NCBI RefSeq assembly: GCF_021917145.1
Contig: NC_061075.1
Location: forward strand, 3,703,038-3,767,037
Length of the DNA: 64,000 nt
Origin: Hypomesus transpacificus
Taxonomy: Eukaryota > Chordata > Actinopteri > Osmeriformes > Osmeridae
Reading direction: 5' to 3'
Shown here in pieces: positions 3,410 through 64,000 of the stretch (position 1 is the first letter of the stretch; every line of letters begins with the position of its first letter). Made by a program: the position numbers and the translations under genes. The notes under the pieces were generated by a model. The model worked only from the letters and a program-made list of their open reading frames with translations. It was not told the origin of the DNA and made no database searches.

Positions 3410-6177
3410 GACAGGGGTCAAGGGTCCGGCTGGTGGAACAGGTCGACACACAAAGACGGTCCGTTTATTTCGGGGTCCCCCCCAGAACCTATGGCCGCGG
3501 TGAACAGGAGTGACGGCGGGGCCCACGTACCGTTTTATAGATCTTGAGGACGTGGGGGGAGGGGTGGAAGTCGGCGTGAAACTCGTCGATGATCACGTTG
3601 AGGCGACAGATCTCCTCGCCCATAGCACTGGAAACCTGAGGCGCACACACACACACACAGCTGTCACATCGCCCTCACAAAATCCTGCAGTGGCACAGCC
3701 TGGGGTTTGTTATGTAATATGACTGTATATGTTATCATGTTACTGCTGTCATGCTTGGCTCCCCTAAGTACAGTATGTACTCCCACATGCTACACCAAAA
3801 CAAACAGGAGTGAAGCCGTGATATGAATAAGCCCCAAACCATCTCTCTCTCTCTCTCTCTAATCTAAGTGGGCAACTACAGCATAACTCGATACTAATAA
3901 AATGCTAATCCACATTGTGGTGAACGGGGGCATGATCACGCCAGCTCCTGTCGCTCTCAAAAGACCCGCAAGGGGGTTTGGAGTGCTGTGGCGTCGGGCC
4001 AGGGGGGGTCAGTTACCTTGGCCTCCACCTCCTCAGTGATGGTCTTGATCTTCATCTTGATGTCCTGGATGAGCAGGTTCAGCTGGTTCTTCACAAACTC
4101 CAGACGGTCCATCTGGTACTCGCGGTCCTCCAGCGACAGCACTCTACACGCCCCCACCACCACACCACACCACACCAAGCACGGGACAGAGGTCAGTCGA
4201 GCACGGGGAGCTCCTCGGGCGAGGCGTGGCGGTCGTCGACAGCGTGCGGCGCATTTTGTCAAAGTGACCGTGCCATTCGCCTATTCATCTACCGAATACC
4301 CCCTTTACTTTCAATCGGGTTCAAACTGCGGGGCTCGATGAGGAAACCGCCCGCTTACTCGGTCTACAGTAGCAGGAATTGTGGCAGGCCATCGCAAGCT
4401 ACAAACGTTGAGGAGATCTTGACACAGCAATAAGTCACCTCACCCCTCACAAAACCTCACCCCCCCCCCCCCCCACACACACCTTCCCCCCTACATCCCA
4501 CCCCAGGAGAGGGGGCACGGCAGGCAGAGGGGAACGGGGGGGGGGGGGGGGCACCCACCTCTTCTCGGCCGACTCGATGTTGATGGCGTCCATGATGGCT
4601 TTGACCTTCCCTGCGATTAGCTTGGCCCTGATCGTGTGCTGCTCAAACTTTGTTTTCACTGCTGACTGCGAGATACACTCCTGCGAGGCCACAACACACA
4701 CGTTACCGCGCTGAACAGGGGGGGGGGGGGGCTGCTGCGACGCACGCGCGCGCACGCACACACACACAAACTTGTGTGTGTGTGTGTGCGCGTGTGTGTG
4801 AATTCGCTGGGTCAAAAGAAGGGTTAGATACAACCCTGCTGCCACACAATTAGGAAGAGGAAGAGACGAGGGGAAGGAAATGAAGGGAAAATGGCGGCGG
4901 CAGCAGGGTCGTGTCTCCAGTCCCACGGCCCCCCCCCCACGTGGTGTCACAGCGTCACCGTAACGTGGCAGTGAAGCGATAGCGTAAATCATAACAACAC
5001 AAAAGTCAATACAACTCAAGGAACACAACTGAAAGAAAGGAAGGCATCGTTGTACACTGCATGATAAGACTAGCATCGTGCGGCATTAGGGTTTAGTTTA
5101 CGAGCGTCTGCTAAATGACTAAATGTATCCTTTTATATATTATACTGTATGTAGGCACTTTGTATTCTTAAATGGTTTACTTAATTAAATGACTATTGAA
5201 ATCAAATCCATTTAATTAAAATGTATAAAAAGGGCCAAAGGCTGTGTTTACTGTATCAACTACAAAACATGTGTGATGAGATTAATTACATACCGTAGCT
5301 ACAGCTAGACAGTACAATAGGATTCCAAGGAGCATCCAAAGAATAGTGCTTTGGAGGTTTTGTATTGCTAATCAAGTCGGCAGATTTAAAAGCCTTCCCA
5401 AATGTACAGTATATCCAGAAGATATCCCATTAGTTGACAATAACACAACTCAGACAAAGACACAAGTGCAGGCGGAACAGAAAGAACTCAAACATACGAG
5501 ACAAACACAACTGAAAACCGAACTGAAAGGGGGGATGCCCTCGCCTTAGCAAATCTAGACTTCAGCAATGAAGACGCAGGTTGACGCAAATGCCGCACAT
5601 TCCTATTGGCTGAGGGGTCACCGAGGGCTGCGTTTGGAGACGAGCGATTGGTGAAGAGACAAGGGGTCCGGGATGGGCCGAAGACTGAATGTAGAATGTG
5701 GGCCATGAAGGTAGAATGGTTAAAACGTTCTTGTCTTAGTTCTTTTCTTAAACTTACTTCTATTCAGCGGTTCTTGGATATCATTTGGTTAACCTAGTCT
5801 AGGCTTAATCTGCTCTGACTTTAAACTTCCAACTGGTTCAAACAGGACGTTTCTGTGAATACTCTCCAGTATGGACATGCCGTGTTGTGCAGACGTATAC
5901 AACCCTCGGATCTCTCCCCGATATCCCTGCGTTTCTAGACGGGCTACATGAGACTCTGAAGCCACACCGCAGTGGAGAAACTCCCTCTAGGACCCAGAGA
6001 GCGGTCGTGCCGCTTCAGGTGAGAAGCCCTGGGAACAAGGTTAGGATTCTACCTCATTGGACGGCTTCAAAATAGGAGACATTTCAAATAAAAACACCTT
6101 TTAAGTGAGATATGGGGGCTGCATAAAGTATAGCATAGGACACCGATCTAGACACTCTTTGACCTTTTTTTTGGTGG

Positions 6178-6209
<32 letters not shown>

Positions 6210-9200
6210 TTTCCTTTTGTATTGGACCACGGCAATATTCTCCCTGCCACTACTGACGGTGGTAAATAGTTCTGCTAACTGCTTATTTTGGCCCCCTTCC
6301 CAGATTCCCCTGACGCCGGGTCCACAATGTCACGCCGTCGAAGGCCAGGCCGACAGGAAACAGAGGGACGGTTGGCATGGGGGGCTCTTTAGCCTGCCTC
6401 GAGCTCCCTGGTCAGGACACCGGGTTTGTCATCTGAGGAGTGGGCCTCTGGGGCCCCCCCCGACTGCACATCTGATTTCACCTCGGCTTCGATTCTGCGG
6501 AGCGATCCTTTTGTTGGGATCGCTCTCCACTAGGCCTATTTGGAATGGTTGTCCTTGCCTCTTAACGTGGGCTCGTCGACTGACTTCATATCACCCTGGG
6601 AGTCTCCTCCTGACGGGTGCGGATGTCCTATTTCCATCAGTAGAAACGGAAAGGACAACAAGGTTTTCAAAGTATTCGGTGAGCCCCTTCAGTCGGCACG
6701 AAAGACGCAAGACGGTCAGCACAAACACCCATGCTCTCGCGCACACACACACACACACATGCTTTTACATACGGGCACCCGCACGGTCACTTGCCTCGAA
6801 CCTCCTCTCAAAGCTCTGGAACTCTCTGAGCCTCTCTTGGAAGCCCTCTGCCAGAGCGCCACCTGTGAAAGGAAGCACACTGTCACATCCACCACGACGG
6901 AGGGACGAGAGCTTCGGGCATCCACACATCCTGCTGCTGCCATCTTAGATAAGACGTTTATTTTCAACCCTCACGCGGGGTACAAAATGGTGAGTGCGTG
7001 TGTGTGTTCTGCCATAGCACAGACCATAAGAACGGGCCGGGCTATAAACTGAGCTCACGAGACACTAAAAGCAAAGGTCAGTTGTTGTGAGAATGTGAGG
7101 GAGTGCGATTGCATAAGTGGCCTGTCCCCTTGTGAGAGGCATTGCCCAGAGTTGATGGTGCAGTTCACAGTGTCATGCGGCAACATAGCTAGGCTCGGTG
7201 TTCTTTGGAGGGCTGGGTCTAATTTGGGATGGCATACCGAGTATCCTACTTACACAGGACGGACACACACACACACACACACTGCGATGTACATACTGAC
7301 TAGGGTCACTAAAACACACACACACACACCAGGACGAACATACTGACAGTGGTCACCAAAACAAAACCTTGCCTACTCTTGGTTTGACCAGTTGTCTTAC
7401 ACAATGGTCAAAGAAGACAGCTGTTCGTTTGACCACACAAACACACACACACGCGTGTGCCATGACCACTGGGCTTACCGGTCTCGGGCATGCCCTGGGC
7501 TCTCTGCATGCGGGAGTTGAGCACCTCTTTAGCCGAGACGAAGAAGATGCGGTTGGGGGCCTGCTCGCGGTCCACCACCTTCAGCTCTTCCACCAGGAAG
7601 TTGACGCAGCGGTCCGTGTGCTGCTTCCGTACCTGCCGAGGACAGGAGACCCCCCCCCCCCGGGTAACTGACCCACACCAGCCACGAGGTCAGAGACCGA
7701 GACCTGAGGGGAGGTCAGTGAGCGTGGGGCTGACTGCAGCCTGTACGTGTGGGTCACGCCACGTCGACGCAGGCTAAACATCGCATTTTGCACGGATATT
7801 TTTCCCCCCCTAATCTGCTTTAAAATCGTATTGACGAAGATCTATATGGTCGACGCACGGTCATGAGGTGCGTAGGGGGCCGTGCGTGTGACGGGATGAG
7901 GAGGGCGGGGCCGGAGGAGGAGCTCTACTCACGTCCTCCATGTACTCGGGCTCGTTGGCCGAGGCGTCCCAGCGGTTGTTGAGGATGAAGATGTTGGGCT
8001 TGGAGAGGCGCTCGTTCACCTTGTGGAAGAAGTGCTTCTCCTGCGGGAGGTCCAGAGGGGGGGGGGGAGGGGGGAGAGGGGTGAGGTGGGTGCAAACCGC
8101 AGCTTGTACACATACTGCACGGTGAACTGACTTCTGCATTAGCGTCTTCCTCTATGCATGATTGACAGGGCCTGGGGAACGTAGGCACTGATATGCCTTG
8201 CTGTCGATTCAGAACAAATCTGTATGAGGGATAAACAGTGCTCATTTCTGTGTCTGAACAAGGTTGAACACCTTAAGCGTAGTATACTGTATTGGAATTG
8301 TTTTCACCCTTGGAATAATAGAGATTATTCATGTGATGGCAGGCTAAACAAAAGAGCATGACTGTTTGTGCTGTTTTAAGGGCAATCTTTCTAGGAACTT
8401 CAGGAGATGCACACTCTTTATATTGATATACAGAATTGTTTATTTGTGTTGTACATTGTTTTTTGTACTTGCACCACCATGAGCCAAAGGTTAACCACCA
8501 GAATAAAGGTTATAGAAAACAAACATGTATGTATTTTATATGGATCAATAGATACTGAGGTAGTCCTATTATGATGTCAGCAGAATTGGCTCTGAACCAA
8601 TGGAGACAATGGAAGCATTCTGGAACACTTAAACATTCCAAAAAGTTTACACAAGAAAACCAAACGTTCTCAAAGACACCAGATCTACTTTCAATGCATG
8701 CCATGCAACCATGATGAAAATGAACCCAATCACAGTTTGGGATCAGGTTAATTGCCTTGGTGAGTATTGAAATGTATTTTATTATATTATATGAATCAGA
8801 ACAAAAAGTATTGTATTCCTATTAAAAGTAATATTATCATAAAGTTATTACATTAAGTTTGTTTGAAGCTTAACAAACTGAATGAGTGGTCATTAAGTTT
8901 GTCATCAAGTTTGTTCAAAACTTTGCAAAAAAACTGAATGTTAGTTAATTTTGTCTTTAGGTTTGTTAAAAGCTTAACACATAATTTAAAGGGTGGTTAA
9001 GACAGGATAAATTGTCAGTTTAGAGGGTAGTTCATCCCCCAAAATGAAACTGTTCAGTAAGCAATTAAGGATAAAAAATTTTTTTGCAAACACCTTGGTT
9101 GCCATAGCTACCAAACTACAAAGCAATATGTTCCATAACTGCATGAGTTACATATCAACTCATTACCGTTTAACAATACGTTATTATACAAGAGCAAACT

Positions 9201-12200
9201 GGCATATGTTTGGGCTTTCCAGGGCTAAGTGTATGGTAACGTTGATCTCGTTCTGGTCATAACAATAAACTACCCTTTATAACAACCACATACCCCTTCA
9301 TCCATAATGTATCTTTTTACCCTTTGGAAATAACCTATAACCATAAACTTAAAAATGATTCAATGACAAAGCAACACATGTATGGTCAAATTAATCAAAA
9401 GCGTGATATGAAAGAATATTTATCATGTTCGATTTCTGGACTACATCTTGAGTGTCCTTCTGCTCTTTCAGCTACAGATTCCACACAACCCTCCAACCAG
9501 TTGTCCGGCCGTATGTGGGGCTCCTACAAAGACCAAGGAGATGCATACGTGGCCCTGAAGAACAACGTGGATCCCAATATCATCGTCATCGACTCCTCTT
9601 CTGATGAAGACAGCTCGGATGATGAGCCTCCAGACCAGACCTTGTCTGTGCATTTGTTGGCTACCGACACGGCCTCCTATGCTAGTGGCAGGCCTGCAGG
9701 GATGCATACGGAGTCGAGCAGCCACTTCATGGCCTCTATCGGTCTTCCACAACATCTAGACCCAGCTGCCTCTGCTTACCCTGGGACGAGCACTTACATC
9801 TGCCCCCCACTGCCGGCTGCCATAGCACTAACACCTGGCAACTCTGGCTTCCCTGGACCTAGCGTCTCCAGCGGTCCTGGATTTAGCAGCTCGGGCTATC
9901 CTGGGCCTAGTGTCAATAGCTGCCCTCCACAGCACCCTGGTGATATGATGTGGCCCAGCCCCATGAGTCATCCAGATGGAGGCACCTCTGACCACTACAA
10001 TGGGCCAAGCATGCCAAGCATGCCCATCTGCCCTCCACCACATATGTACCCTGATCAAAGCTCTAGGGTGAACCCTGGTTCTAGCCTTCCTAGCAACTAT
10101 CAACGTCCTGATCAGCCCATCTGCCCACCACAGCCTCCTGGTGGCTATATGGACCCTGGTCTGTACTACAATGTCTACCCTCAACAGCAGGCTAACCCTA
10201 GCACGACTGTGTACCCTCCACAGCCGGCTAGCACCTCAACTTGCTCTCGGAGCGACATGACCACCTCCCTTCCACGAGTCTCCAGCTCTCTCTATCCCAA
10301 TGACGTAGAGATGATCTCTCCTCCGGCCAGCCCGAGGATCACTAATAGGTTGGATCAAGTGGAGGACATGGAGGTGGCCTATGATGGCCGCTCCAGCCGC
10401 AGGACACAGCCAGCTACAACCCTCTCAACATCTAACACTGCTCCACAGAACACCTTCCACCATGGAGCACTTGCCAGCACCGGCTACGACATGACAGCCC
10501 CAGTCTACAGCAGCTCTGGGCCCAGCAACAGCTACAATGCTTACTCTAGCACCATGATTGCTCCTAAGGGTAGCGCTTACTACTGTAATGGGCCTAGCGT
10601 GCCCATCTGCCCACCACCACATCCTGCTTATATGCAGCCTGATCATAGCTCTAGGATGCACCCTGGTTCTAGCATTTCTAGCAAATATCAAAGTCCTGGT
10701 CAGCCCATCTACCCTCCACAGCCTCCTGATGGCTATATGGACCCTGGTCTGTACTACGATGTCTACCCTCCACAGCTGGCTAGCACTAGCTTCGCCGCAT
10801 ACCTTCCACCACAGGTTAACTCTGGCTTCACCGCATACCTTCCACAATGTGCTAGCCCTAGCACCCAAGGTTACCATCCTAGCCTCACTGTTTGCCCTCC
10901 ACAGCAGGCTAGCACTAGCATGACCGCGTACCCTCCACCACGGCAGGCTAGCACTAGCATGACCGCGTACCCTCCACCACGGCAGGCTAGCACTAGCATG
11001 ACCGCGTACCCTCCACCACGGCAGGCTAGCACTAGCATGACGGCGTACCCTCCACCACGGCAGGCTAGCACTAGCATGACCGCGTACCCTCCACCACAGC
11101 AGGCTAGCACCTCAAGCTACACGACCACCTCCCTTCCACTAGTCTCCAGCTCTCTCTATCCCAATAACATTGAGATGATCTCTCCTCCGGCCAGCCCGAG
11201 GATCACTGATCTGTTGGATGAAGTGGAGGACATGGAAGTGGACTATGATGACCGCTCCAGCAGCAGGACACAGCCAGCTGCAACCCTCTCAACATTTAAC
11301 ACTGCTCCACAGAACACCTTCCACCATGAAGCTCTTGCCAGCAGCAGCTACGACATGATGGTTCCAGTCTACAGTAGCTCTGGGCCCAGCAACAGCCTCA
11401 ATGTTCAGGCTCTGGTCCATTGCTCTGGCTCCAGCACTGGAAACAGTGTTTGGGGATCCATCCAGACCCATGCCCACCCCCAGCTGGGGGGCCTCCAGAA
11501 CCACTCTGAGAAGAAGACCAGAAAGAGGGTGAGGGAGGCCACACTGGATCACTGTGGCCTAGCAGAGGACGAGCCTGTCCCCAAGAAGAGGAGGATGATC
11601 GTCAAAGTGAATCGTCCTCGTACGCGACGGAGGATGCGCTGAGGCAATGGAGTCACTTTTCCTTCTTTAACACGGTGAAGGTTTCCGTTTCAGCATTTTA
11701 TCAAGAGGATTGTGCCACCACTATTTTCTAATATATTTTTTTTACTAAAGCATTATTAATTACTCATATTTCGAGAGTTGCACTCAATTAGAGTGCTTGA
11801 TTGAGAAATTAATAAAAAATTATAAGCATGTGTGCCAGGATTTCTTTTTCTTTTCTTGAAATTTAAGATAAGTCTGTATGATAAAAAGATGAGCAGTACC
11901 ACTTGGATATAAACTTTGCCTCTGTTGTTGAACTGAGAAGTTCACGTCGGTCACTTCACTTGGCATGGAAGTGTGTCCAAATGATCAGAGGCTGATTATC
12001 CAACAAGTCTTGTTTGACAACACAATCCAGCTATGGAGTTCTGTAATTGACTATGTGTCCTAACATAGCCTCAATACATCCGTTTGCAACCGTGAGCAGG
12101 GGGGGGGGGGGGGGGGGGGGGGATATGGGGCATGCCCCTTTAAGAGATTTGGCATTCATAAGCTCTGAGATTGCCAATGTGCTCTGACATACCATGAATG

Positions 12201-15085
12201 CTTGAGCAGACATAAACAGAGCTGAGTCTGTGGGCTGGGTCAAAACGAAGCTAGCAATACCCCGGCACCATTAGCCATTCCAAACTAAAGGAAATGAGTA
12301 AGCCCTTCTTATACAAATTGGTGGTTGCAATTTCACATAGGTTTACGGAACTTCTATCATGAATTAAAACTCTCGAGTTTCTCTTACTCTTTAGTTCTTT
12401 CTTCTTTTAAATGCAAACATATTTCTGGGAACCATAGCCATAAATATTTCACACATACATAAAAAGAATTGTGCAAAAAATAAAACCTTAAAAATTCAAT
12501 ATAAAAAATGGCAGCCAGTGCAAGCAAAGCAGATGGTTAGGTTAATTTGTTTGAACTGCTCTTGGGAATGGCTAAGCTACTTAACAGCCCAGTTTGCTGG
12601 TCTCGGAATGACAGCCATTGGTCAGGTCTTTGAGAGAAAGTCCAGCCTGTCCTTTCCTCTTACCGTGTTCATGAGTGTTGATTCCGAGTTGGCGACCAGA
12701 ACAAACACATCGGCGTCCAGACAGAACTTGTCGATCCAGCTGTCCAGCTGTGTTGTGACATCAGTCCCGGGGCTGCGGGCCAGGGTTGAAAGGTCAACAG
12801 ACATCAAGGTCTTTTCAGAGATTAAATAAGAGCCTACACCGACTCAACTATAAGTCTGATCAAGTCTGACCATCTAGTACGGGTTGAACTACAATTCGCA
12901 ACAAGGATACAGACTAGTAACGCATCAATTGGGATTCAAAAGTACGTTTTTCCTATAGATCGGAAAGGTGAGCAGGCACGTATAGCTCATCTGTGTTTAG
13001 TCAACAGCGTGGCCTGAAGTGTGCTATAGTACTACTGTAAGCCTCTCTCCCACTGTGCGAGAAGCTTAGTAGGCCCGCTGGGCGTCAGTGGAGGTGAAGG
13101 TTGTAGTCTGCCAGCGTTTCACTGCTCACCTGTCCACCAGAACCAGGTCGTCTCTCAGCAGAGCACACTTGGTCTTGGGCCAGAAGACTCGCACCAGGCA
13201 GCCTGCGTCCAGGCTCTCATCCATGTGCAGAGCATGTGCCAGCTGGTTCACTGTCTGCGGAGGGGCAGGCAAGGAGGAAGGTTGTTTGAATTGGATTTGA
13301 AATCATTGGCCCTGCTAAGCCCAGGCTATCTCTGGATACCTGGCGTTATGCTAACGCAGCACAAAAAGTTCAACTTCTCTATTGACTTAGGACAAAACCG
13401 CATAACAAAAGAGTGAATGTTGTGGGTATTTTATATGACAATGTTTCCCTTGTTCGAGCTGAATAACAGAATACGTGAAAGATGAAAGTTGATTCGATTT
13501 AGACTTTGTGACCTTGAAACAGGAGCACCACTGTACTCTTCGTCCAACTATACTGGTCTGCACCTTAGATATCTGATACCAGTGTAAACATACAGTATTT
13601 GCATGTTTGTGTCTGTTCAAATGTAGTCAGAGCTGAACCAACCAACCCAGTCCCACGGCAAGGACATTATGACAACAAGTTTATCTGGTAGTCAGGGTTT
13701 TTATTGCTCCTGTTATCAGTCGCCAAACAGACTCCAGGATACAGTGAGAAAATAAATACTTCTCGACTCTCGACCCTCCCTCTCGACATGTGACGCTCCG
13801 ACCCAAGCCGACACAACCCCTTTTCCTCGAGATCCGCACCTCCGCATGGTCAGCGCATCGACTGACGACCCCTGACAACATCTCCCACTCTCCACAGCTC
13901 TTACAACACGGCTCCAAATGACACTAGCTTACAGCCGACTCCAATCCTATTGGTGGATGATAAGACACCTAGGACCCTCCCATAGTAGCTACCAATAAGT
14001 AAGGATGTGCGTGTGTGTGTTACCTTGATGCTCTTCTCCTCTTCGGAGCCCTCCGTCTTGAGATAGGCCTTGTCCTCGTCCGTGCCCTCCACGCTCAGGA
14101 AGCAGTTCGTGGTGTGGCCGATGCCGCTGGGCAAAACTCGGTCCCTCAGCATGGCGTTGACTACAGTGCTCTTTCCATTACTTGTTCTGTGGGAGATGCA
14201 ATCACAATAATAATAATAATAATCACATCCTTGAACTTAGCGTTCCAGACAAGCTAAGTTCCAGACAATCAGGTCAGACTGCTTACTAAAATGATCGCCA
14301 GTTGTGGGCGAATGTTATGTTGATATACAGCTATGAGGGCTTAGCCGGTCATGCTGGAGACAATTAAAGATGATGTGTTTGATGTATCAGTGGTAGGCTG
14401 CTGCACTCTAGAAGTGCTGTGAGGGTGTGCGCTGGCTTTGAACTGAAACCAAAAGCGACGTAGATGGTCTCATAATCATTCTTTCAACATGCAGTGTGCT
14501 CCGGGAAATCAACCGTCAGATAGATTTGGGTTGCTCATGAGGATTTAAATGAATACAGATCTAGACTTCCAAGTTGGTTAAAAGCAAAGATTAGACAGCA
14601 CACAACAGGAACAGTGAATGAACCCAAATCAACAATTGGTGTACCTGCCAAAGAAGGCCACCTTCATGTGTCTGCGCGCTAAAACTTCTTTGATAACAGC
14701 CAGTTTGTCTGCATAAGCCTGAATCTGCTCCTGTTGGTCCTGGCTGGCAATGTTTTCCAAGGCTTCATTCTGGCAGGTTTCTGATCACAAACACAATCAC
14801 AAATACGTCTTCAAACTTCAACAAGGAAAAGACAAGAAACCAGAGCTGTTTAACAATATTAACGTAACCTACTTTAGTACTCAAATGTGTTCATTGCTTG
14901 TCTAAATGTCCTACTGGCTACAAGCGCTCACCTTCTACAAACGCAGAGGCTTCTTTCACATACTGCAGGAGTTGTTCAAACACATCACCGATCTTTTTCT
15001 TGGCCACTACAAAGTGTTTCAGAGGTGAAAAGTCCCCCTGGGCTGAATCCGTTCGTCTGAGGAGGGGGACTTTCTGGGAATCCAT
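348..15085 (-). CDS. mfn1: Mitofusin 1, outer mitochondrial membrane fusion GTPase (3' end beyond window)
   Basis: Sixteen coding exons read on the minus strand, all in consistent phase: 14932-15085, 14645-14780, 14024-14186, 13130-13254, 12664-12772, 7933-8040, 7479-7632, 6795-6862, 4559-4680, 4017-4143, 3531-3635, 3252-3354, 2198-2424, 1756-1929, 1082-1278 and 348-482, giving about 735 codons. The dynamin-like GTPase domain shows G1 GRTSNGKS (about residues 96-103), G3 DSPG (192-195) and G4 NRWD (251-254). The paired membrane segments lie near 611-650 (VVIVGGVV, then [20 protein letters not shown]). The C-terminal heptad region contains [10 protein letters not shown]. Wording such as [25 protein letters not shown] and [10 protein letters not shown] is MFN1-like rather than MFN2-like. 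The family tethers and fuses outer mitochondrial membranes. The last exon ends in phase 2 at ..SLR before a gtcagt donor, so the final roughly 20-25 residues must lie left of position 1. Intron 8 has a GC donor. Intron 5 (4.6 kb) holds an opposite-strand ORF. Confidence 0.95.
1297..1497. repeat. (GA)/(GACA) imperfect microsatellite
   Basis: About 200 bases of gagagaca-type repeats in the mfn1 intron directly upstream (minus sense) of exon 1082-1278. On the transcript strand it is a long TC-rich tract near the acceptor. Confidence 0.9.
3359..3409. repeat. (GA)n microsatellite at an mfn1 acceptor
   Basis: A pure GA run starting a few bases beyond the exon edge at 3354. On the transcript strand it reads (TC)n and serves as the polypyrimidine tract of the acceptor. 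Confidence 0.9.
4747..4800. repeat. (CA)n/(TG)n inverted repeat
   Basis: A run of CA units is followed after aaactt by TG units, giving an almost perfect palindrome (cacacacacaa, ac, ttgtgtgtgtg). It lies in mfn1 intron 8 and could extrude as a cruciform. Confidence 0.85.
5095..5130 (+). mobile_element. SINE tail fragment
   Basis: The motif acgagcgtctgctaaatgac is the conserved 3' end of fish SINEs. No tRNA head is visible upstream, so this is a 5'-truncated remnant. Confidence 0.45.
9363..11642 (+). CDS. Unrecognised Pro/Ser/Tyr-rich, probably nuclear protein nested in mfn1 intron 5
   Basis: A single uninterrupted reading frame of about 770 codons lies antisense inside mfn1 intron 5. The open frame begins at 9324 without an ATG; the first ATG is at 9363. 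A plausible splice acceptor (tctttcag, 9464-9471) lies inside the frame, so the true start could instead be a spliced upstream exon. I do not recognise the family. Visible parts, numbering from 9324: a SUMO-interaction-like acidic motif [16 protein letters not shown] (86-101); a Pro/Ser/Tyr-rich low-complexity body; two large diverged copies of one segment (from about 9995 and 10581), each with [28 protein letters not shown] and VEDMEV; a tandem 13-residue repeat ([13 protein letters not shown]) at about 10903-11100; and a basic C-terminus with PKKRR (753-757) and RTRRRMR, which looks like a nuclear localisation signal. AATAAA follows at 11811. The long open frame and retained duplicate arms suggest coding; function is unknown. 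Confidence 0.7.
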   Translation: MTKQHMYGQINQKRDMKEYLSCSISGLHLECPSALSATDSTQPSNQLSGRMWGSYKDQGDAYVALKNNVDPNIIVIDSSSDEDSSDDEPPDQTLSVHLLATDTASYASGRPAGMHTESSSHFMASIGLPQHLDPAASAYPGTSTYICPPLPAAIALTPGNSGFPGPSVSSGPGFSSSGYPGPSVNSCPPQHPGDMMWPSPMSHPDGGTSDHYNGPSMPSMPICPPPHMYPDQSSRVNPGSSLPSNYQRPDQPICPPQPPGGYMDPGLYYNVYPQQQANPSTTVYPPQPASTSTCSRSDMTTSLPRVSSSLYPNDVEMISPPASPRITNRLDQVEDMEVAYDGRSSRRTQPATTLSTSNTAPQNTFHHGALASTGYDMTAPVYSSSGPSNSYNAYSSTMIAPKGSAYYCNGPSVPICPPPHPAYMQPDHSSRMHPGSSISSKYQSPGQPIYPPQPPDGYMDPGLYYDVYPPQLASTSFAAYLPPQVNSGFTAYLPQCASPSTQGYHPSLTVCPPQQASTSMTAYPPPRQASTSMTAYPPPRQASTSMTAYPPPRQASTSMTAYPPPRQASTSMTAYPPPQQASTSSYTTTSLPLVSSSLYPNNIEMISPPASPRITDLLDEVEDMEVDYDDRSSSRTQPAATLSTFNTAPQNTFHHEALASSSYDMMVPVYSSSGPSNSLNVQALVHCSGSSTGNSVWGSIQTHAHPQLGGLQNHSEKKTRKRVREATLDHCGLAEDEPVPKKRRMIVKVNRPRTRRRMR
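10903..11100 (+). repeat. 39-bp coding minisatellite in the nested ORF
   Basis: About five head-to-tail copies of a 39-base unit containing ggctagcactagcatgacc, encoding [13 protein letters not shown]. The last copy reads PQQ in place of PRQ. The period is a multiple of three, so copy-number change would keep the frame. The units are almost identical, which implies recent expansion. Confidence 0.9.
11811..11816 (+). terminator. Polyadenylation signal for the nested ORF
   Basis: AATAAA lies about 170 bases after the TGA stop of the nested plus-strand ORF, in AT-rich sequence. It supports a real plus-strand transcript unit, although AATAAA also occurs by chance in such AT-rich DNA. Confidence 0.45.
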
Positions 15086-15093
15086 GTTTCAGA

Positions 15094-17750: not shown

Positions 17751-18794
17751 ATGGCCTCTAATGACCCTGACCTTCCCTATCCCCTTGGTGACCCCCAACC
17801 TGGTGACCTCATTGAGATCTTCAGACCGGCCTATCAGCACTGGGCTCTCTACCTGGGAGATGGCTACATCATCAACTTGACACCTGTTGGTCAGTAAACA
17901 ACAGTGTGTGTTTGACCCCTGGCCCTCTGCACTCTCCATTGAATATTCAAGTCTGAATGTTCCCACTGCGTGTCACTGCCTTCTGTTCAGCCCCATGAAA
18001 GGTGTTCAATCTGATTATCAGCCATCCTTTTGTAAACCCCAGATATAAACAGCAATGATTGGTCGGAGCGATGGCTTGTCGTGCGGGGATTCAATCTCAG
18101 TCACTCTGTCGCAGCACACGAAGGGGCTCTCATTTTGGAGACTCTTAAATGTCCTCTGCTTTTTCTAGATGAGAGTCAGGCGGCTGCCATGTCCAGCGTG
18201 AAGTCCGTTTTTAGCCGCAAGGCGGTGGTGCGAATGCAGCTGTTGAAGGAAGTGGTGGGATCTGACTCGTACCGGGTCAACAACAAGTACGATGACGACC
18301 ACACGCCATTGGCTGTCGATGAGATCATTGAGCGAGCTCAAGTCCTCATTGGCCAGGAGGTGTCGTATGACCTTTTGGGTAGCAACTGTGAGCATTTTGT
18401 TACCCTGCTGCGCTACGGGGAGGGTGTGTCTGAGCAGGTACCCGTTATTGCTTTCGCACACACGCACCTAGACACACACACACACAGACACACGCACACA
18501 CACTTCCTATATCTATCACTCTATGGATATCGTAATCGATCCTTCCTGTCTGCAAAATGACACTAGGTCTCATCACAAAAATCACTTTGTCATCACTCTT
18601 TCATTCATTGTGTTCTGCCTATATAACACTTGTTCAACGTGCTTTCACTGTAGTTTAATTCATATCTCCTGTTCATGTGTTGGTGTCAACAGGCCACACG
18701 GGCCATTGGGGCCATCAGTTTGGTGACAGCTGCAGCCAGTGCCTTCTCTGTGCTGGGGCTGATCAACACTCGCTCCAGAAACAGGCCCTTCTGA
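17751..18794 (+). CDS. plaat1: Phospholipase A and acyltransferase 1 (HRAS-like suppressor)
   Basis: Three coding exons, 17751-17889, 18169-18437 and 18693-18794, join in phase to 169 residues, the normal family length. The LRAT/NlpC-P60 fold is shown by [21 protein letters not shown] with catalytic His30, and the NCEHF box with nucleophile Cys120. [13 protein letters not shown] follows, and then a C-terminal hydrophobic anchor (about 137-160, [18 protein letters not shown]). The position of the second family histidine is Asn (YIINLTPV, residue 42), as in human PLAAT1 (VINIAP), which distinguishes it from PLAAT2-5. The family shows phospholipase A1/A2 and N-acyltransferase activity on glycerophospholipids. 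The start is the ATG at the exon border, matching the human N-terminus. It lies divergent from mfn1 and directly upstream of ftsj3. Confidence 0.93.
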
Positions 18795-22300: not shown

Positions 22301-25245
22301 ACACACACAGATCTCACGCCTCCTCTCTCGCCAGGCACTGTGCGAGATCACCAAGGGGGACATGAAGGCGGCCGACAGTCTGGTGGCGGGCGAGGAGGAC
22401 CTCTACCTGTCTGACGAGGACGAGGACGACAGAATGTCGCTGGCCTCCGACCTGGACTCGGACGACATGGCGGAGGTGGAGGAGAAAGAGAAGGAGCTGG
22501 AGAAGAAGGCTCCCAAGAAGTACGTCTCCGCCTCGGTGCTTGTGACGACAAGCCGCTATACGATTACTCCACCTCTCGTTCCTGTCACGTCAGAGGTTTT
22601 TGGTACCTCGTCACAAACCCAGCGGCTCATGTTTGGGCTTGTGTTTGCAGGGTGTCCTTCTCTATGGGGGAGGAGGAGGAGGAGGAGGAAGGAGAAGGAG
22701 GAGGTGGACTGCTGGTGGAGCTGGAGGGGAAGGAGGAGAAGCAGGACAGAGAGACTAACCTGTGGTTCAGCAAGGTCTGTCACCACACGCACACGCACAG
22801 AACAGTAACATCATTTTGAAAGAAATGGATGAAAATTAGGAAATCCTCGGTGGAAAAATATATATTTGGAGAGAGAGAGTAAACGGCGTATAACTTGGTG
22901 CCGACATGGGAGAAGTTGGTTGTGCTTTAAAAAACACGATAGTAACAAGACACGCACAGCGTCACACCATATTAAAAGGAAGGTGAATACATAAGTGTCC
23001 AATGTTGTTATACAATAATAGAATTAAAACAAAGACCAATCCGTGGCTGGGTGGATAAGCGATCTCCAGCGATTCACGTCGCTGCCGTCTCCTCAGGGGA
23101 TCTTCTCGGAGCTGGACCTGGACGGAGACGCAGAGAGCGAGCTGAAGCAGTCCCAGAAGCTCCACACCCAGGACGTCCCAGGTGAGACTCCGCCCTCATG
23201 GACGGACGCAGGAAGAGAAACCTCCCGCTTCCATGCAGCCCAGACACGCCCGCCTGGAACACGGCACGCTCGTGTCAAGACAGCTGAAATAATTTGATAG
23301 AATCAATTCTGACGTTTCGATCAGAAAGCTCAGATTGTCAATATTTGTTTAAAATATAAATATCATCATAAATTGGATTTCTTTACTCGTGTTCCACACT
23401 TTCCCGCCCCAACCCGCCTCATCCTTTGTTTTTCAGTCGGCAAAGGGAGGAAGAGGAAAGCAGAGAAGGCCCAGCCGGAAGAGGAAGAGGCGGGGCCTTC
23501 ACAGGAAGCGGAGGGGGATAGCGGCAGTGACAGTGACACTGACTCTGACAATGACGATGAGAGGTCAGCTTTCACAACACTACACTTTCTAACACGGGCG
23601 AAAATACAAAACTGTGAAAGGAAAGATCCATTCAAAATGTTATCAACATACCAATACTACTTTCCGGAATGTTCTTTTGAGTGTCAAAGCTTAAGTGTCT
23701 TACGTCAAAGTAAATGTGGCTTTTTCTTCTCCACAGGAAAATTGCCCAGATGAAGGCCGGCAAAGGAGCAGGTGTCTCCCAAGGCAACACAGAAGAGGAA
23801 GATCTACAGGTGGTCCCCGTGGAGAGCACCAGTGAGTACAGGGCACGTTTGGCTTGGGGTGACCGGCGGCCGTTTCGACCAATGAGAGACGACCGCGGAG
23901 TTGTCGCCGCCCATTGAGGTGTACGTGTGTGCTCCTCAGGTAAGCGGGCTAGAATCCTGGACCCAGAAGGCTTGGCCCTGGGGTGTCAGATCGCCACGTC
24001 CAAGAAGAGAGCCAGGGATCTGGTAGACGGCTCCTTTCACAGGTAGAAGAAACCGGTTCACAAACAGTGAACCCCATGTCTTTGTGTTGAAGGCACACGT
24101 TTCCGTCCACTCATGTCTCTGAGACGGTCTTGTTTGTGTATGTCAAACTGACGTGTGTGTGTGTAGGTTCGCCAGCTCTGAGGACCAGTGCGAGGTGCCC
24201 GAGTGGTTCGTGGACGACGAGAACAAACACCGGAAGAAGCCCGTGCCCGTCACCAAGGAGATGGTGGAGGAGTACAAGGAGCGCTGGAAGGAGATCAACG
24301 CCAGGCCCATCAAGAGGGTGGCCGAGGCCAAGGCCAGGAAGAAGAGGAGGGTAAGGAGACAAGGAGGAGGAGGAGGGGGGAACCACACGGGAATGGGAGG
24401 CAGAGGGGGAACTGAGAATCTCCTCTTTTTGTTCCTCCAAAATGGGATCGATTTTTTGGATTTGAGGGAGGAAGTTGAGACTTGGGAGGGAGAGAAAGCG
24501 TGTTTTTTTTCCACGGCACTAACGACAACACGTGTGCCGAGTAACCAAGTCCACGATTTGACCCGTGTTCCAGATGCTGAAGAAGATGGAGCAGGCGAAA
24601 AAGAAGGCAGAGGCTGTGGTCAACACCGTGGACATCTCAGAGAAGGAGAAAATGTCTCAGCTCAAGACGTATGTATGCCTTCTAGCCTCGCCCTCAACCA
24701 CACACACACACACACACAGTCACTGGAGCCACAGCAAAGTGTTAAAAGCCACTAAGAAGTCCCAACCAGCTCTCACGATGTCGTCACAAAACCCCCACAC
24801 CCAGACCTCACGTTCAAAACAACTTACTTCACCTGATGGAGTCAAGCGAACGTCCAGATATCTTTCTCAGGCATAAACTACATTTCCCAAATGCGCCCTC
24901 ATGCCCATAAACGACAAAAAAAAAGCCAATTTTGTTCTCGTCTTTAAACCCCCCCTTGTTTCCTCCCCTCCCAGTATCTACAAGAAGGCGGGCGTGGGCA
25001 AGGAGAAGAGGGAGGTCACCTACGTGGTGTCCAAGAAGGGCGGCGGAGGCAAGCACGTCCGCCGGCCGGCCGGCGTGAAGGGGGTCTTCAAGGTGGTGGA
25101 CAACCGCATGAAGAAAGACATGAGGGGCATGCAGAGGAAAGAGCAGAGGGACAAGGGAGGGAAGAAAGGCGGGAAAGGCCGAGGTGGCAAGGGAGGCCGG
25201 GGAGGAGGGATGAAGGGAGGGAAGGGACGTGGACCAAGGAAGTAG
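19337..25245 (+). CDS. ftsj3: FtsJ RNA 2'-O-methyltransferase 3 (Spb1-like pre-rRNA methyltransferase)
   Basis: Twenty-one exons in continuous phase give 855 residues (human is about 847): 19337-19403, 19539-19644, 19792-19838, 20002-20081, 20285-20384, 20601-20795, 20927-21042, 21163-21267, 21383-21483, 21594-21689, 21797-21946, 22115-22250, 22335-22519, 22651-22774, 23097-23181, 23437-23563, 23737-23831, 23940-24042, 24167-24350, 24574-24668 and 24975-25245. The N-terminal FtsJ/RrmJ domain has the SAM motif DLCAAPGGW (50-58) and the K-D-K-E tetrad at about Lys31, Asp117 (VLNDGAP), Lys157 (FVTKVFR) and Glu192. A middle DUF3381-like region, acidic Glu/Asp stretches and the Spb1 C-terminal domain ([14 protein letters not shown], then [17 protein letters not shown]) follow, with a Lys/Gly/Arg-rich nucleolar tail. 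The family methylates 2'-O-ribose in pre-rRNA during 60S maturation in the nucleolus. Confidence 0.96.
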
Positions 25246-35044: not shown

Positions 35045-38000
35045 GTTAGTGACAAGCTAGTGTTTCTTCCTCGTTTCAAATGATTCAAATTCAAATTTGA
35101 ATTCAAGCCACACGCAAATACGACCCAGCCTAACAGAAACACTCATACGTTTGACCAAACCGCTCGTTTGAAAATGCGACGTTCTCCCGTTTCACCACTC
35201 ACGCGCGCGCACACAGGGTCAGCTTACCTTGGTGTCCTTCAGGAGCACAGACGAGTAGAAGCAGGCATGGGTGCTGGTGACGTACAGCCGCCCGTGGTAG
35301 GGCACCTCCTTCTGCAGGGCGCAGATGTACGCTGGGGTGGAGAGAGGACAGAGGAGATCAGCAGCAGTTGTGCTAAGGGCCCTCAAGGCTAGCTGGTCAC
35401 TGAGCAGGACTCTAGAACACAAACAGGGGCCCTCAAGGCTAGCTGGTCACTGAGCAGGACTCTAGAACATTAACAGGGGCCCTCAAAGCTAGCTGGTCAC
35501 TGAGCAGGACTCTAGAACATTAACAGGGGCCCTCAAGGCTAGCTGGTCACTGAGCAGGACTCTAGAACATTAACAGGGGCCCTCAAAGCTAGCTGGTCAC
35601 TGAGCAGGACTCTAGAACACAAACAGGGGCCCTCAAGGCTAGCTGGTCACTGAGCAGGACTCTAGAACACAAACAGGGGCCCTCAAGGCTAGCTGGTCAC
35701 TGAGCAGGACTCTAGAACACTAAAAGGGGCCCTCAAGGCTAGCTGGTCACCGAGCAGGACTCCTGGAACAGCTGTTTGTGTTCTAGATGTGCTCTAACAG
35801 ATCGTGGTGGACTTTTGATCTTTTCCTTTGGGCTCCACCCCTACTTAGCACAAGCCACTTTTGGAATTGTTTTGTAACAACTCAGAAGAGAAGAGTTGGG
35901 TTTACTTTACGTGGATAGTAGCCTTACCAAATATAACTAATGAAATGAAACAATGGAGACTTTACTGTTGTGCAAGATATGTCATTATGTTGCCATTATG
36001 TATGTAGTAAATAAACGTGTTTGTACTGATGATTATCTATGCAACTTACAAACTGTTCACATAATTCTCAATGGGGTCAGGACTTGGATACAATGTATGC
36101 ACTATGCGTCACAATAAACCACCTGCAGTCGAACAACTCGGTATCATTTAGCGCCTTTTTGGTTTTGCTCAGCTTACCATGCAGCAAGTCTTCGCTCTCG
36201 GGAATGTCTGGAAACAACTTGTGGAATGTTGCGTTGTGCTTGATGAAGCTCTGTGGGAAAGGACAGCAAAAGCCCACAGTGAGCAAACACACGAAAAGTC
36301 CTTCAAACCAACGATGCAGTGCGGTGGGAATGTTTTCCCCTCGTGAATCTCGTCTTTGGAGGCCAGGCCAAACCTACACTTTGTGAGCCTGTGCCTTCGG
36401 TCCTCTCAAAGCTCCGGTCTGCATCGAACGTCTCCGACCTGAGGGGGGACACACAGGAGGGGGAGGGGGGGGGGGGGTGGAGTCAGTAACTGGCCCTGGC
36501 GAGTGCGTGTGAGGGAGGGAAGGGGGGGTAACGCTTCAACACGAGAACGGAGGCTCCAGGTTCTCACCCGGCCGCTAAACTCGTCGACGGCGATGACGTT
36601 ATGCGAGTTTTGCATTGGTACGGTGCAAATACAGGGAGTGCCTTGTGCTCGTTTGCGTGTTCTGTGAGCAGGAGGAGTGGTGTGGAAGGGGGGGGACGTT
36701 GGCCTACCTGATGGGGGCTTGTCTGGTGAGGATCTTCTGCTGATGGACGGCCAGCTGGGCCTCCTCCAAGCTGAAGGCCTTCCTGGGTTCGGCCTTCTTG
36801 CTGCTCTTGCTCCTCTTCACCTTCGCCGACAGTCCACCGCTCTCCACTGGGTAGCTGGAGGAGAGAGAGGGGGGGGGCAGGGTTTAGTAAGGAAAAACGT
36901 TTTTGTTTTTCTCCTAGATGTCCGATCGAGGAGATCCCTTCACAAAAAGATACCACGAGCCAGCTCGGAGGAGAGAACAGCCAGAGGTCTCCCCTGTCCC
37001 AGCAGACAGTCGCCACCGTGGCTGATGGATGATACAAACCCCAAGGGCTAACCTGAGAGCCAGATACCCATGGAAACTATGCGTGGGCTAAGGTGTGCTG
37101 TTCCACATACCTCGACCTGCCGTCACAAAAGCGAAGGATAGCTTTTGTAGGCCCGGAGGCTTGTGTTTAACCCCCCCCCCCCCCCCCCATCAACTGGATC
37201 ACGTCAAATGACAATCTGGTGGACGTTTGTGTACTAAATCTAAGAAAGGATATTTCCCCCCAAAAGACAACAGATTAAACTCAATCAAATACAGTGCAAT
37301 CCATTATCTGTTCTAGTTTGTCCCCCAAAATCCATGACAAAACCACAGACTAAATACCAGCCTATAGTGAAGGTAAACAGCCCAGCAGTAGCTACTCCCA
37401 ACACACGAACCTGTAGCATTCTGATACATTGTCCTTCGAAAAAAGGTTGCCAACTGTAAACTGAATCCCAATGTTGTGTCTGAGGATGTCATCTGTCTTA
37501 CCCGTTGAGACGTCTCCTGGATGACCGGAAACTCATGTACCTCATCATAGCCAGTCGTTAATGTATGGAAGAACAATGTGATCAACTATAACTAGCCTCA
37601 ATCCATTATTCCATGCCTCAGACAAAAAAGAAAACAAACACAAAAAAATGAAGGACGGGAAAGTCGCCAAAAAGCTGGGAGCAGCTGAACAGACGACCCG
37701 TTACTAGAGTGACTTGTGAACTAGTTCAGCCCACATCCTGCCAGTGAAAGCTGTTGTTACATGAATGCCATTACCTAAAGGAAGTTGCCTTTGTGTTCCG
37801 AGAATGGTGTGACACAACGTTGCGGGTGACGTAGGGGCTCCGGACACGCCTCTCCGCCGCCTCAGCGAGTGAGAGCAGAGCGCACGGCCGCGGGAGCAAA
37901 TGACAGGTGCAGACACACAAGTGGAGCCCCGCCTTCACATTTTCTACCAGCCTACAGGCAAAAGAGAAACTGCCTTCCGACATGAAGCGCCACTTGCGTG

Positions 38001-48763: not shown

Positions 48764-49171
48764 TGTTTTCTTCACACTTTCTCGTGGGAGGAAAAGTGTA
48801 ACGTCATGGCATTTAGTAACCTTGTGTGCATGGAGTTCACTTGCAGCCCAGACCAGTAAAGGATTGTGGAGGGTCTTAGAGGAACGTTTACTTGCTATAA
48901 TGCGTTTGCGGTTCTGCCTGGGTGCTCAGGGTGTCTGATGTTGCGCACACATACGATCCTGCATTTACGGGGGTTTTGGGTTTCGACCAGGCAGCGCTGT
49001 GCTCCTCAAGCTACCGTTACCTGGAGACTCTCATCACTAATTTAGCAGACCAACAGCCCATGGCAGGGTCGGAGAGGTGGAGGGGGAGCGGGGAAGACTT
49101 TCTGCGTCGCAAGCCAGGGCAGCATCCAGCCAGGCTTCCAAAGGACAAAGGAGAAGCCAGATCTGGGGCCA

Positions 49172-55721
<6,550 letters not shown>

Positions 55722-59961: not shown

Positions 59962-62900
59962 TTACAGAGAGGGGGGCGGACCCTTTACAGGCTGGGGAGA
60001 GTCTTCCCCCTTCCCTCCCCCGGGATCGCCCTCCTGAGCGCCCCCCAGGGAGGAGCGGGTGAGCCTGCGCAGGGTGCCACTGAAGGAGGGGTACAGGCTC
60101 ATGATGGAGCCCCTGGACCAGTCCATGCGGGGGTATACGCGCTTGAGAACGGCTCGGCGGAACAGGATGTACACCCAGGGGTCCAGGATCTGGTTCCAGG
60201 TGGCAAATCGGAGCCAGAGCAACAGGAGGCGGACTTGGAGTCGGGTTCCCGACAGCACAGTCTGCGCAATAAACACCTAAAAGAGGAGAGAGAAAGGGGG
60301 GGTTGGGGGGAAGAGGTGCAGGAGAAGGGGAGATTTGGATGGGGGAGAGGGGGAGAGATAGGAAAGGAAACATGGCAAGATCAAAAGGAAAGTGTTAGGG
60401 ATACAGAGAGTCCGGGACATGCGAGAGACGAGAAATAGCGAAGGAACGTGTAGCGTGGAAGGAGGAGGGAGACACACATGGAGAAGATCTACAGCTTGAC
60501 ACTCTCTCTTTTTCGCACACACACAAAGTGATGTGTTATCATCCATCCCGGTGAGTCAATTTTTACGAGGGTCTCTGCGGTTGAGGCCCTGGCATCCCAA
60601 AAAGGTGTGCCTCAGGCCTTATGGTCGTACCATTAGTATTAGCGCAGTCCACTCCACATTTGCTTACAGCTGATGATTCAAGCAGTTTTTTAAATGCATC
60701 TACTGTATGCCGCATGCTGCCAGTTAGCACTGTAAATCTCCGTTTGGGGTACAGTTGTAGTAGATGGACCCTGCCTAAGACCATCTGCTCGCATGCATTT
60801 ACACAATCTGCAGCGTTTCCATTATGTAGTGACAGCTCATGGACTCAAAACAACGGTTTCATGAGATGCCTCTACCGCTCCATGATTGGTCTGAAGGGTT
60901 AGCCAACAAGGAAGCCAGCCAATGAAAGAAAACAAATTCCAATCGCTCAAGTGAGTGGTTTATTAGCCGCATGGAATGGATACAAACAAGCCCATCGGAG
61001 TGCATGTCCAGGCCAGGGGTGCTTCAAAGGAAGGGTTTCTGGGAAATGTTACATGAAAGCTGCCGGTAATCAGGGAACCTGCATGAGCGGATGGGTCCGT
61101 GAACACTGGTTATTTCGGGGCTTGATAAAGTCCAGCCAAACGATGTGATATTAAGGTTGAGCGGTGATGATAAGCTGTAGAGAAAAGGGGACACCGTTTT
61201 GTGAGTTTTTGTCGTTGTTTTTTTTTTTACTCGCCTTAGTTTCGATTCCTGACACAAAATGTAGATCCAGGGATCGCAAATCTGATTGCATGTGGCGAAG
61301 CGCAGGAAGGTTAACACAGATTGGGGTTCTACGGGCGCAGCTGACAAGGCCCTCGTCAGGCAGTACACCTATGCAGCAGGGCAAGCACACAAGGTCAAAC
61401 CTGGGAGAGGCCCTACGCGGGGACACAGAAACACACGACACCTGCAGGTCCTGTCGCAGGCGCAGAGAACAGCTCGACGATGACACCCAGCAAGGAGTTG
61501 TTTCGAATCAAATCCCTTTTGTTGAGGTGTCCGAAGAGTGCCTCACTATCAGCACCACTTTATGGGCAGAAATAGTGCGCTTGAGTAAAGTGACAGACAC
61601 CATCGAGAAAGGCCTGTCTGGGAATTGTCTGCATTCAAGCGAACTGAGAGACCGGCAGGAAAAAATGGCCTTACATGGCAATAGTTCAGCAACATTCCTC
61701 TCGTTAAGGTCTCGATCAAGCTGAAGCTGATTAGCCAGCATTGCTATGGTGTAATGAAGGACAGAAAGTGAAGTGCTAAGTGAAGCTTGGATTTTCTCTA
61801 GCCTTTCCCAAAAAGTTGGAGCTGATTACACTCTAGCTGAGAAAAAACAAGAGGAGACAGAGGGAGAAGAAGAAGGCGAGACTAAGGGAGGGAAGGAGGG
61901 ATGGCTGGAGTGTATGAGCGAGCAACTTTGAGCTGTTCAGAGTTGTTTAGACATTTGTCATTTAGCAGACACTCTTATCCAGAGCGACTTACAGTAAGTA
62001 CAGGGACATTCTCCCTGAGGCAAGTAGGGTGAAGTACCTTGCCCAAGGACACAACGTCATTTGGCATGGCCGGGAATCGAACCATCAACCTTCTGATTAA
62101 TAGCCCGACTCCCTAACAGCTCAGCCATCTGACCCCCATCAGTTCTTCAACCGTGGTTCTGAGTCACTCTAAACAACTTAGGATTTTTATGGTGCTGTCA
62201 TATCGAGTTGTTTCTTCATAAAACAACTTGAGAAACTTGAGAAAAAGTAGAGACAGAAGGGTGACGTGAAATGTCAGAGAAGGAGCCAGAAGTCTGGGGA
62301 ATGTAGGGTCCTTACCGGATATCCCCTCTGCCTCCATCTGGAGATAGCTTTAACATATGGGCCTTATCGCTCGGCAACACTCAGCTCCACTCTCTAACGC
62401 ACTGCTACACAGGCAACAATACTTCCTGGATGAGAAACTAGGGCAACTCACACTGCTTACCCCTGCTTAGAGTTCTCATTCCAATTTGAAACAACTTTAT
62501 CAGTCCCCCTCTGTGGTACACAACCAGAAGGCCAGGGAACCAGAGAGTGTTTTTGTTTAACAAGGAGGAGGAAGGCGTTTCATGTGAACAAACGTAAAGC
62601 GTAAATATTAAAACGTTTTGATAGCAGAGGCTTGAAAAGGTATGTTCATCATGGAAAAATAGAAAAAGACATGGTTGTGTCTGCGACAAATAAAATAATC
62701 GTGTTTATTTTGTGTGTGTGTGTGTGCAAGTAAGCCAGCGTGGCAGGTGGCACCGTGCGACTCACCAGCAGGGGGCACCAGCAGATGGAGGCGATCACCA
62801 TGATGAGGATGAGCTGCACCATCATCTCCACCTCGTAGTCGCGCCGGCGCTGGGCGCCGTCCTGCCCGCAGCACACCTTGACGAGGGTGACCACGCTGAT

Positions 62901-63563: not shown

Positions 63564-64000
63564 GGCGGCGGGAGGGAGAGCGGCGGGCGTTCAGAGGATG
63601 GAGAAGGCGAGGTGGATTCTAGTACGTTTTGGAGACATGGAAGTTCTCTTGCTTCACCTTGGGAAAGGAAACAGAAATGTGGCATGCGTCACACAAATGC
63701 CCGAGTCATGTCTTGTGTTTTTATTTGGTAGGCAGACAAAGGGACTTTTCTACACATTCCGTTGAACAGCACAACACATTCTGCAGAAAAATGTGTTGAC
63801 CAATCGGAAAACAGCCATGACTAACGGAAAAACATCCAAATGCGATGCAGAACACATTATTTGTATAAACAGACTTTTTCCCGATGGAGTCTTCATACTG
63901 ACAAGTGACAGGGTTTATACAAAGCTATAAACTTAGCACGCATATGGAACACAGATGTTGGTTTCTCGCTTATTGTGAAAATTATTTTTAGAGGCCTTGC

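Follow-up and report, generated by a model that had tools for sequence, protein, structure and literature searches.

A probable two-exon gene of a small, fast-changing family lies antisense within mfn1 intron 5

A long reading frame lies open on the strand opposite to mfn1, which raises the question of whether it belongs to a gene and, if so, to one of what kind. In the window (the whole stretch of 64,000 nucleotides that was analysed), the plus-strand frame at 9246–11642 stays open for 798 codons from stop to stop and is the longest of all, the runner-up reaching 336 codons. An earlier note on this DNA had described about 770 codons as open here, a description that stands: counted from a TTG at 9324, the ORF that ends with the stop at 11642 has 772 amino acids. 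As judged from related copies elsewhere in the genome, this frame very probably represents a real, fast-changing gene of two exons (Table 1).

The surrounding gene had been named as mfn1, and the host intron as its fifth, in antisense orientation; both identifications hold. On the minus strand, exon frames were found at 14921–15088, 14632–14784, 13992–14236, 13129–13302, and 12625–12843, with further ones past intron 5 at 7864–8151, 7411–7689, 6768–6944, and 4447–5085. Joined by eye, these exons scored 621.8 bits against Mitofusin-1 and 578 against Mitofusin-2; a 37-residue mfn1 exon searched alone had no match in the PDB, and the joined exons did match. Exon 5 ends in AACACG|GTAAGA at 12664 and exon 6 starts with CCCGCAG|GAGAAG at 8040, so bounding an intron that wholly contains the gene unit at 8521–11816, whose transcript ends are predicted ones.

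Could repeats alone have opened such a frame by chance? A 39-bp array and two internal duplications do lengthen it, and a 228-codon shadow frame is open on the antisense strand too. The repeat spacings (39, 864, and 588) are all multiples of three and both duplications lie in frame, in agreement with the codon-period repeats that had been pointed out before. Order-2 Markov shuffles of 9468–11642, however, gave a longest frame of 125 codons at the median and never exceeded 341 codons (500 trials), with a maximum of 300 codons in shuffles of the whole window (30 trials). Moreover, the array covers only 212 bp, a minority of a frame that lies mostly outside it, and a diverged paralogue, C18c, retains the same frame. 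Chance, to which we give next to no credence, is refuted by this conserved frame. The G+C content climbs from 0.34 (9300–9499) to 0.545 (9500–9699), where the frame starts looking coding.

To define the relatives, the same 437-Mb genome, in which the window lies on contig C16, was searched with the exon-2 protein as query. Among the matches listed, the family comprises at least five copies: the window copy, a broken copy on the same contig (C16b), and three tandem copies on contig C18 (C18a–c), whose main blocks agree at 98.8–99.6% and whose 3′ ends agree at about 94%. Three weak ones of the 19 matches, on contigs C10, C156, and C17 (E 4.8e-5 to 2.0e-4), fall over the repeat stretch 471–565 and were left out of the family. 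The C18c protein (645 amino acids, 47% identical to the window protein in the alignment) gave 76 matches, from which those outside the five copies were likewise left out; their listed query ranges lie within 107–394, a Tyr-Pro-Gly-Pro-Ser repeat. Two further genome searches returned six matches, all six of them family, and ten matches, one of which (E 0.69) was not counted. The frames around the C18 cluster identified no neighbouring gene.

Table 1 Features of the nested gene, its host, its relatives, and the rest of the window (window positions unless a contig is given).
Feature	Position	Strand	Remarks
Host intron: intron 5 of mfn1 by coding-exon count	8041–12663	−	exons match Mitofusin-1
Conserved upstream element, possibly regulatory	8235–8329	+	78% to C18:14868336–14868436
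Putative proximal promoter / 5′ UTR	8521–8719	+	79% identity to C18c
Coding exon 1 (13 codons and first base of Ala)	8720–8759	+	ATG at 8720; donor CTTG|GTGAGT at 8759|8760, common to C18a–c; 77.5% to C18c
Intron, 712 bp, GT-AG, phase 1	8760–9471	+	donor and acceptor (9471|9472) aligned with C18 copies; 58.6% to C18c
Coding exon 2 with stop	9472–11642	+	to C18c: first 386 bases 73.6%, repeat-rich middle 57.4%, last 162 bases 74.1%
SUMO-interacting-motif-like stretch, 16 residues	9579–9626	+	
Internal duplication, 189 bp, copy 1	10042–10230	+	84% to 10630–10818
Internal duplication, 189 bp, copy 2	10630–10818	+	84% to 10042–10230
Internal duplication, 289 bp, copy 1	10251–10539	+	holds 12-residue motif; 91% to 11115–11403
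Internal duplication, 289 bp, copy 2	11115–11403	+	holds 25-residue stretch in the best conserved of five blocks
39-bp (13-codon) tandem repeat, 5.4 copies	10899–11110	+	97% match
Basic C-terminal tail	11505–11639	+	PKKRR nuclear-signal-like motif at 11580–11594
3′ UTR	11643–11816	+	AATAAA at 11811–11816; 67.8% to C18c
C16b, broken copy	C16:4296939–4298127	−	about 0.58 Mb from the window, same contig
C18a–c, tandem copies	C18:14877217–14892945	+	
47-nt minisatellite, contig C18	L010:2694–3079, L010:9743–9893, L011:6533–6730		
LRAT-domain frame	18036–18557	+	Pfam
Spb1_C frame	24123–24752	+	Pfam
Tandem array, 50-bp unit, 7.9 copies	35377–35770		96% match
GIPC GH1 frame	49046–49576	+	Pfam
CCTC, 30 copies	52260–52379		
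Tandem array, 17-bp unit, 12.2 copies	53942–54149		97% match
UnaL2 LINE 3′ element	61952–62005	−	
Rhodopsin-type receptor frame	62652–63590	−	Pfam

These paralogues supplied a gene model in which the spliced window protein has 736 amino acids. The ATG, the donor, the acceptor (CAG|CT), and the intron phase are identical in the window and C18a–c, the counterpart intron in the C18 copies being 637 bp long, and the profile of identity to C18c along the model (Table 1) is that of a gene: conservation is higher in the promoter/5′ UTR, at the start codon and splice sites, at the two ends of the protein, and in the 3′ UTR than it is in the intron. A start near 9363, as proposed earlier, has to be given up: the stretch upstream of 9472 is intron, coding exon 2 begins at 9472, and the first coding exon lies upstream. 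The polyadenylation signal was found again as the AATAAA at 11811, which C18a and C18c lack at the corresponding position; BLAST homology to the C18 copies stops at 11809. On these comparisons, we consider it highly probable that the locus is a genuine coding gene, functional today or until recently, and the earlier idea of a gene nested antisense in mfn1 intron 5 becomes that of a probable protein-coding gene, backed by a model drawn from its paralogues.

Upstream of the coding sequence, the promoter and exon-1 stretch was recovered at four places in the 437-Mb genome among the matches listed—the window and C18a–c—all of them family. The best 60-bp windows of the promoter/5′ UTR (starts 8564–8566) have 56 of 60 positions identical to C18c, and the core at 8564–8625 stands well above the coding averages in this respect; by eye, an ATTGG and a CCAAT box can be made out in it. 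The conserved element further upstream had one further genome match among the matches listed, which lies upstream of the C18 cluster.

How did the copies arise? C16b matches the window at 8996–9379 (intron), in exon 2, and at 11965–12056 (3′ flank); promoter and exon 1 are absent there, C16b not being among the four places at which they were found. Nine of the 15 gaps between C16b and the window are not multiples of three (the gaps were not polarised one by one), and C16b is, by its sequence, a dead copy made at the DNA level. A 44-bp piece of the 3′ UTR (11765–11808) recurs at C16:4298952–4298994, about 0.3 kb upstream of C16b on the same strand; it may be the terminal part of a tandem neighbour that has since disappeared. 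Because intron and 5′ flank are common to the C18 copies, and intron and 3′ flank to C16b, the copies arose at the DNA level. Derivation from a retrocopy of a spliced gene, as had been suggested, would suit a single very long exon within another gene's intron. The intron, however, sits at the same place and phase in the C18 copies, and homology among the paralogues runs on into intron, promoter, and 3′ flank, so that, unlike in a retrogene, an intron is not lacking and the likeness is not confined to the mature transcript. We therefore reject a retrocopy origin as hardly credible; the shared intron refutes it unless that intron was gained before the copies split.

If the gene is real, selection should have left its mark, and it has done so most clearly on the frame. 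Between the window and C18c, 315 of 316 DNA-aligned codons lie in one frame without any stop, whereas the same changes placed at random produced at least one stop in every one of 1000 runs (mean 5.9). When random substitutions were put into the window gene, the frame survived in 9.2% of 1000 runs with 0.04 changes per site, in 0.6% with 0.08, in 0.1% with 0.10, and in 0% with 0.15. The comparison with C16b has to be read differently. Read in the frame of the window copy, 387 gap-free codons of C16b are likewise free of stops, so that it was gaps, not stops, that broke it. That neither copy has gained a stop since the two parted is thus of little weight, and the argument rests on the gaps. At the 116 of 1184 sites that differ between the two, changes are spread 41/38/37 over the codon positions, and omega (1.29, p = 0.30) is not different from 1.

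Constraint on the amino acids appears weaker. Maximum likelihood put omega against C18c at 0.66 (p = 0.0075) when five blocks picked by coordinate were used (368 codons), and at 0.60 (p = 1.8e-5) when every one of the 600 protein-aligned codons was kept, even where the alignment was poor. Block by block, the values were 0.84, 0.58, 0.04, 0.39, and 0.67, with significance only in the third and fourth: the 0.04 block has 37 codons and is saturated, and the 0.39 block (p = 0.038; residues 560–612) shows 71% identity and holds a 25-residue stretch. Codons chosen by DNA similarity gave 0.82 (0.59–1.19), a value matched or undercut in 217 of 1000 random redistributions; they did not repeat a first estimate of 0.48 (0.35–0.66; none of 1000 shuffles as low), which was biased because its codons had been picked by amino-acid identity. 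Over the 271 codons that the three copies have in common, omega was 1.02 between the window and C18c and 0.69 (p = 0.044) between C16b and C18c, and between the internal duplicates it was about 1 by counting and 1.6 by maximum likelihood (p = 0.18). Our reading of the omega and frame tests combined is that the frame is probably under selection and strictly kept, with residues only loosely constrained. Loose constraint on residues is usual for disordered proteins.

Some of these values would also be expected of a dying gene, that is, a once functional copy now free of constraint, with its open frame a leftover as in an earlier stage of C16b. In the codons common to three copies it is the window, not the dead copy, that has the higher omega; the value is near 1 against the dead copy too and near or above 1 between the internal duplicates; three of the five copies (C16b, C18a, and C18b) are visibly damaged; and the divergence from C16b is so small that luck could have kept the frame, as in the simulation at 0.04 changes per site. 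Against this, 736 codons run without stop or frameshift, the window keeps the frame of C18c although 9 of the 15 gaps between it and C16b would shift the frame, and promoter, splice sites, and poly(A) signal are all in place. We regard a dying gene as unlikely, if still a serious rival.

Alternatively, replacements may have been favoured while the frame was kept, in an adaptive conflict, for example with viruses, with transposons, or between the sexes. A frame retained at an omega of about 1 would fit, and so would the changes assigned to each branch, 4 silent and 34 replacing in the window against 15 and 20 in C16b (Fisher p = 0.0028). That SUMO-binding nuclear proteins are often drawn into host–virus conflict counts in the same direction. 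With a protein-based outgroup alignment, however, the branch contrast falls to 4/28 against 12/26 (p = 0.086), and no omega is significantly above 1. The asymmetry between window and C16b is not robust to alignment, and we find the adaptive explanation distinctly unlikely.

The protein itself had been called unrecognised, and a protein search agreed, with no convincing match in Pfam, NCBIfam, the PDB, or IMG/VR. Specifically, Pfam and NCBIfam yielded no family over threshold for the 772-residue frame (its intron part included), Pfam again none for the spliced proteins (its only hit in either scan being Pil1, below threshold with E 0.05), the PDB no relative for the single 772-residue ORF, and IMG/VR none with either the ORF or a two-member alignment. 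A two-sequence profile drew two sequences of lytic polysaccharide monooxygenases, at E 0.012 and 0.015, through a P/G/S-rich stretch, which we take as chance. An orphan sequence with internal repeats and copies at three genomic places might be a domesticated gene of a transposon or virus, and a LINE reverse transcriptase-like frame (by eye) does lie in the C18 tandem unit. Yet, among the five copies that were found, those still intact are built like cellular genes, IMG/VR and Pfam gave the negative results just stated, and a first scan showed no inverted repeat of at least 18 bases (at most 20 bases at 75% in a laxer scan), which makes domestication very improbable.

In composition, the 736-residue protein is rich in serine (15%) and proline (14.5%; S+P 30%) and has 7.2% D+E, a pI of 5.9, a GRAVY of −0.66, and 72% disorder-promoting residues. 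AlphaFold2, run on exon 2 alone without an alignment, returned a pLDDT of 36.9 (weak evidence of disorder). The protein is probably disordered along its whole length.

Two short elements stand out, both reported in the earlier note and both recovered here in a form that the paralogues have in part in common: the layout of a SUMO-binding-like motif, and a tail with a basic nuclear-type signal. PMC8616421 describes a SUMO-interacting motif as a core of four residues, most of them aliphatic, that is flanked on one side by acidic and phosphorylatable ones. The window stretch has the core IIVI followed by 12 residues and fits hhXh/hXhh with an acidic or phosphorylatable flank; in 20000 protein shuffles the strict pattern occurred in none and the loose one in 160, both patterns being post hoc. 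Its counterpart in C18c, FIFIDSSDEYTSDDE, has the same layout with the weaker core FIFI. The basic tail has a pI of 11.6 (last 45 amino acids), and the last 53 amino acids are 58% identical to C18.

From the SUMO-like motif, the PKKRR and basic tail, and the signs of disorder, we infer a disordered nuclear SUMO-binding scaffold. Our main reading, held at a probability of about 0.58, is a two-exon antisense gene in mfn1 intron 5, belonging to a small, fast-evolving family duplicated at the DNA level and encoding a disordered SUMO-responsive scaffold. Gene structure, family, and frame retention are here supported by comparison; that the product is nuclear and binds SUMO is a tentative proposal, to which we give somewhat less than even odds. 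Transcription, localisation, SUMO binding, and tissue are pictured as follows. The gene would be driven from its own promoter and end at its own poly(A) signal, antisense in mfn1 intron 5. The basic tail may carry the protein into the nucleus, where the acidic, serine-rich motif on the N-terminal side might bind SUMO, perhaps once phosphorylated. The repeated P/S/Y-rich middle would act as a flexible, multivalent linker, and the 25-residue stretch, doubled in diverged form in the window copy, could be a docking or phosphorylation module. The site of action of such a SUMO-responsive scaffold might be nuclear bodies, chromatin, or germ cells, and it might work in the manner of GCNA (germ cell nuclear antigen) without belonging to it.

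According to PMC5098910, GCNA is an acidic protein enriched in germ cells, with a protease domain, zinc finger, and HMG box in its canonical form, whereas the mouse form, the closest parallel here, is predicted to have no ordered part at all. The window protein may resemble it in having a large, repetitive, fast-evolving region of predicted disorder and a putative SUMO-interacting motif (one here, several in GCNA as described in that paper). Unlike GCNA, it is not strongly acidic, as its pI and D+E content show, and has no SprT, zinc-finger, or HMG match in Pfam; the SprT-like matches in the genome fall on C6 and C47 rather than on C16 or C18. Judged by domains and composition, the window gene is not a GCNA. 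With PIAS, PML, and Daxx it has in common a run of four aliphatic residues, then acidic ones and serines to which phosphorylation could add further charge (as in PMC8616421), a likeness of the short motif only, no folded domain having been found by Pfam.

As to genomic setting, the LRRTM genes of vertebrates lie on the opposite strand to their alpha-catenin hosts and form long-conserved families of membrane proteins. The window gene resembles them in its place within another gene's intron (PMC3933685) and differs in belonging to an unnamed, fast-evolving family.

The coding exon of the C18 genes contains, ahead of the basic tail, a 47-nt minisatellite (47 = 3 × 15 + 2) in 8.2, 3.2, and 4.2 copies. 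As 47 is not a multiple of three, the copy number sets the frame of the tail: only the 4.2-copy gene, C18c, reads into it, and C18a and C18b have lost it by frameshift. A tandem repeat scan of the window found no 47-nt array in the mfn1-nested copy. One might picture nuclear SUMO readers that are disordered from end to end and form a young family driven by conflict, with a nuclear tail switched on or off by the minisatellite. We think this quite improbable; if it were true, the mfn1-nested copy would be the member that always keeps its tail.

Elsewhere in the window, four of seven other frames given to Pfam matched, and several simple arrays and one LINE element were recorded (Table 1).

Nested genes are common, as are fast-evolving orphan proteins, and the surprise is therefore moderate. 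Fast-evolving orphan genes within introns are already known as a kind, to which the present gene adds one; among the papers listed in a literature search, no title or opening part of an abstract names such a gene. With its long exon in a host intron, a first exon of 13 codons, and a fast-changing sequence, a gene like this is easily missed. What it adds is a gene family without convincing match in the four databases searched, in which one intact nested copy, a dead sister, and three tandem copies would make the birth, decay, and frame switching of a disordered-protein gene testable.
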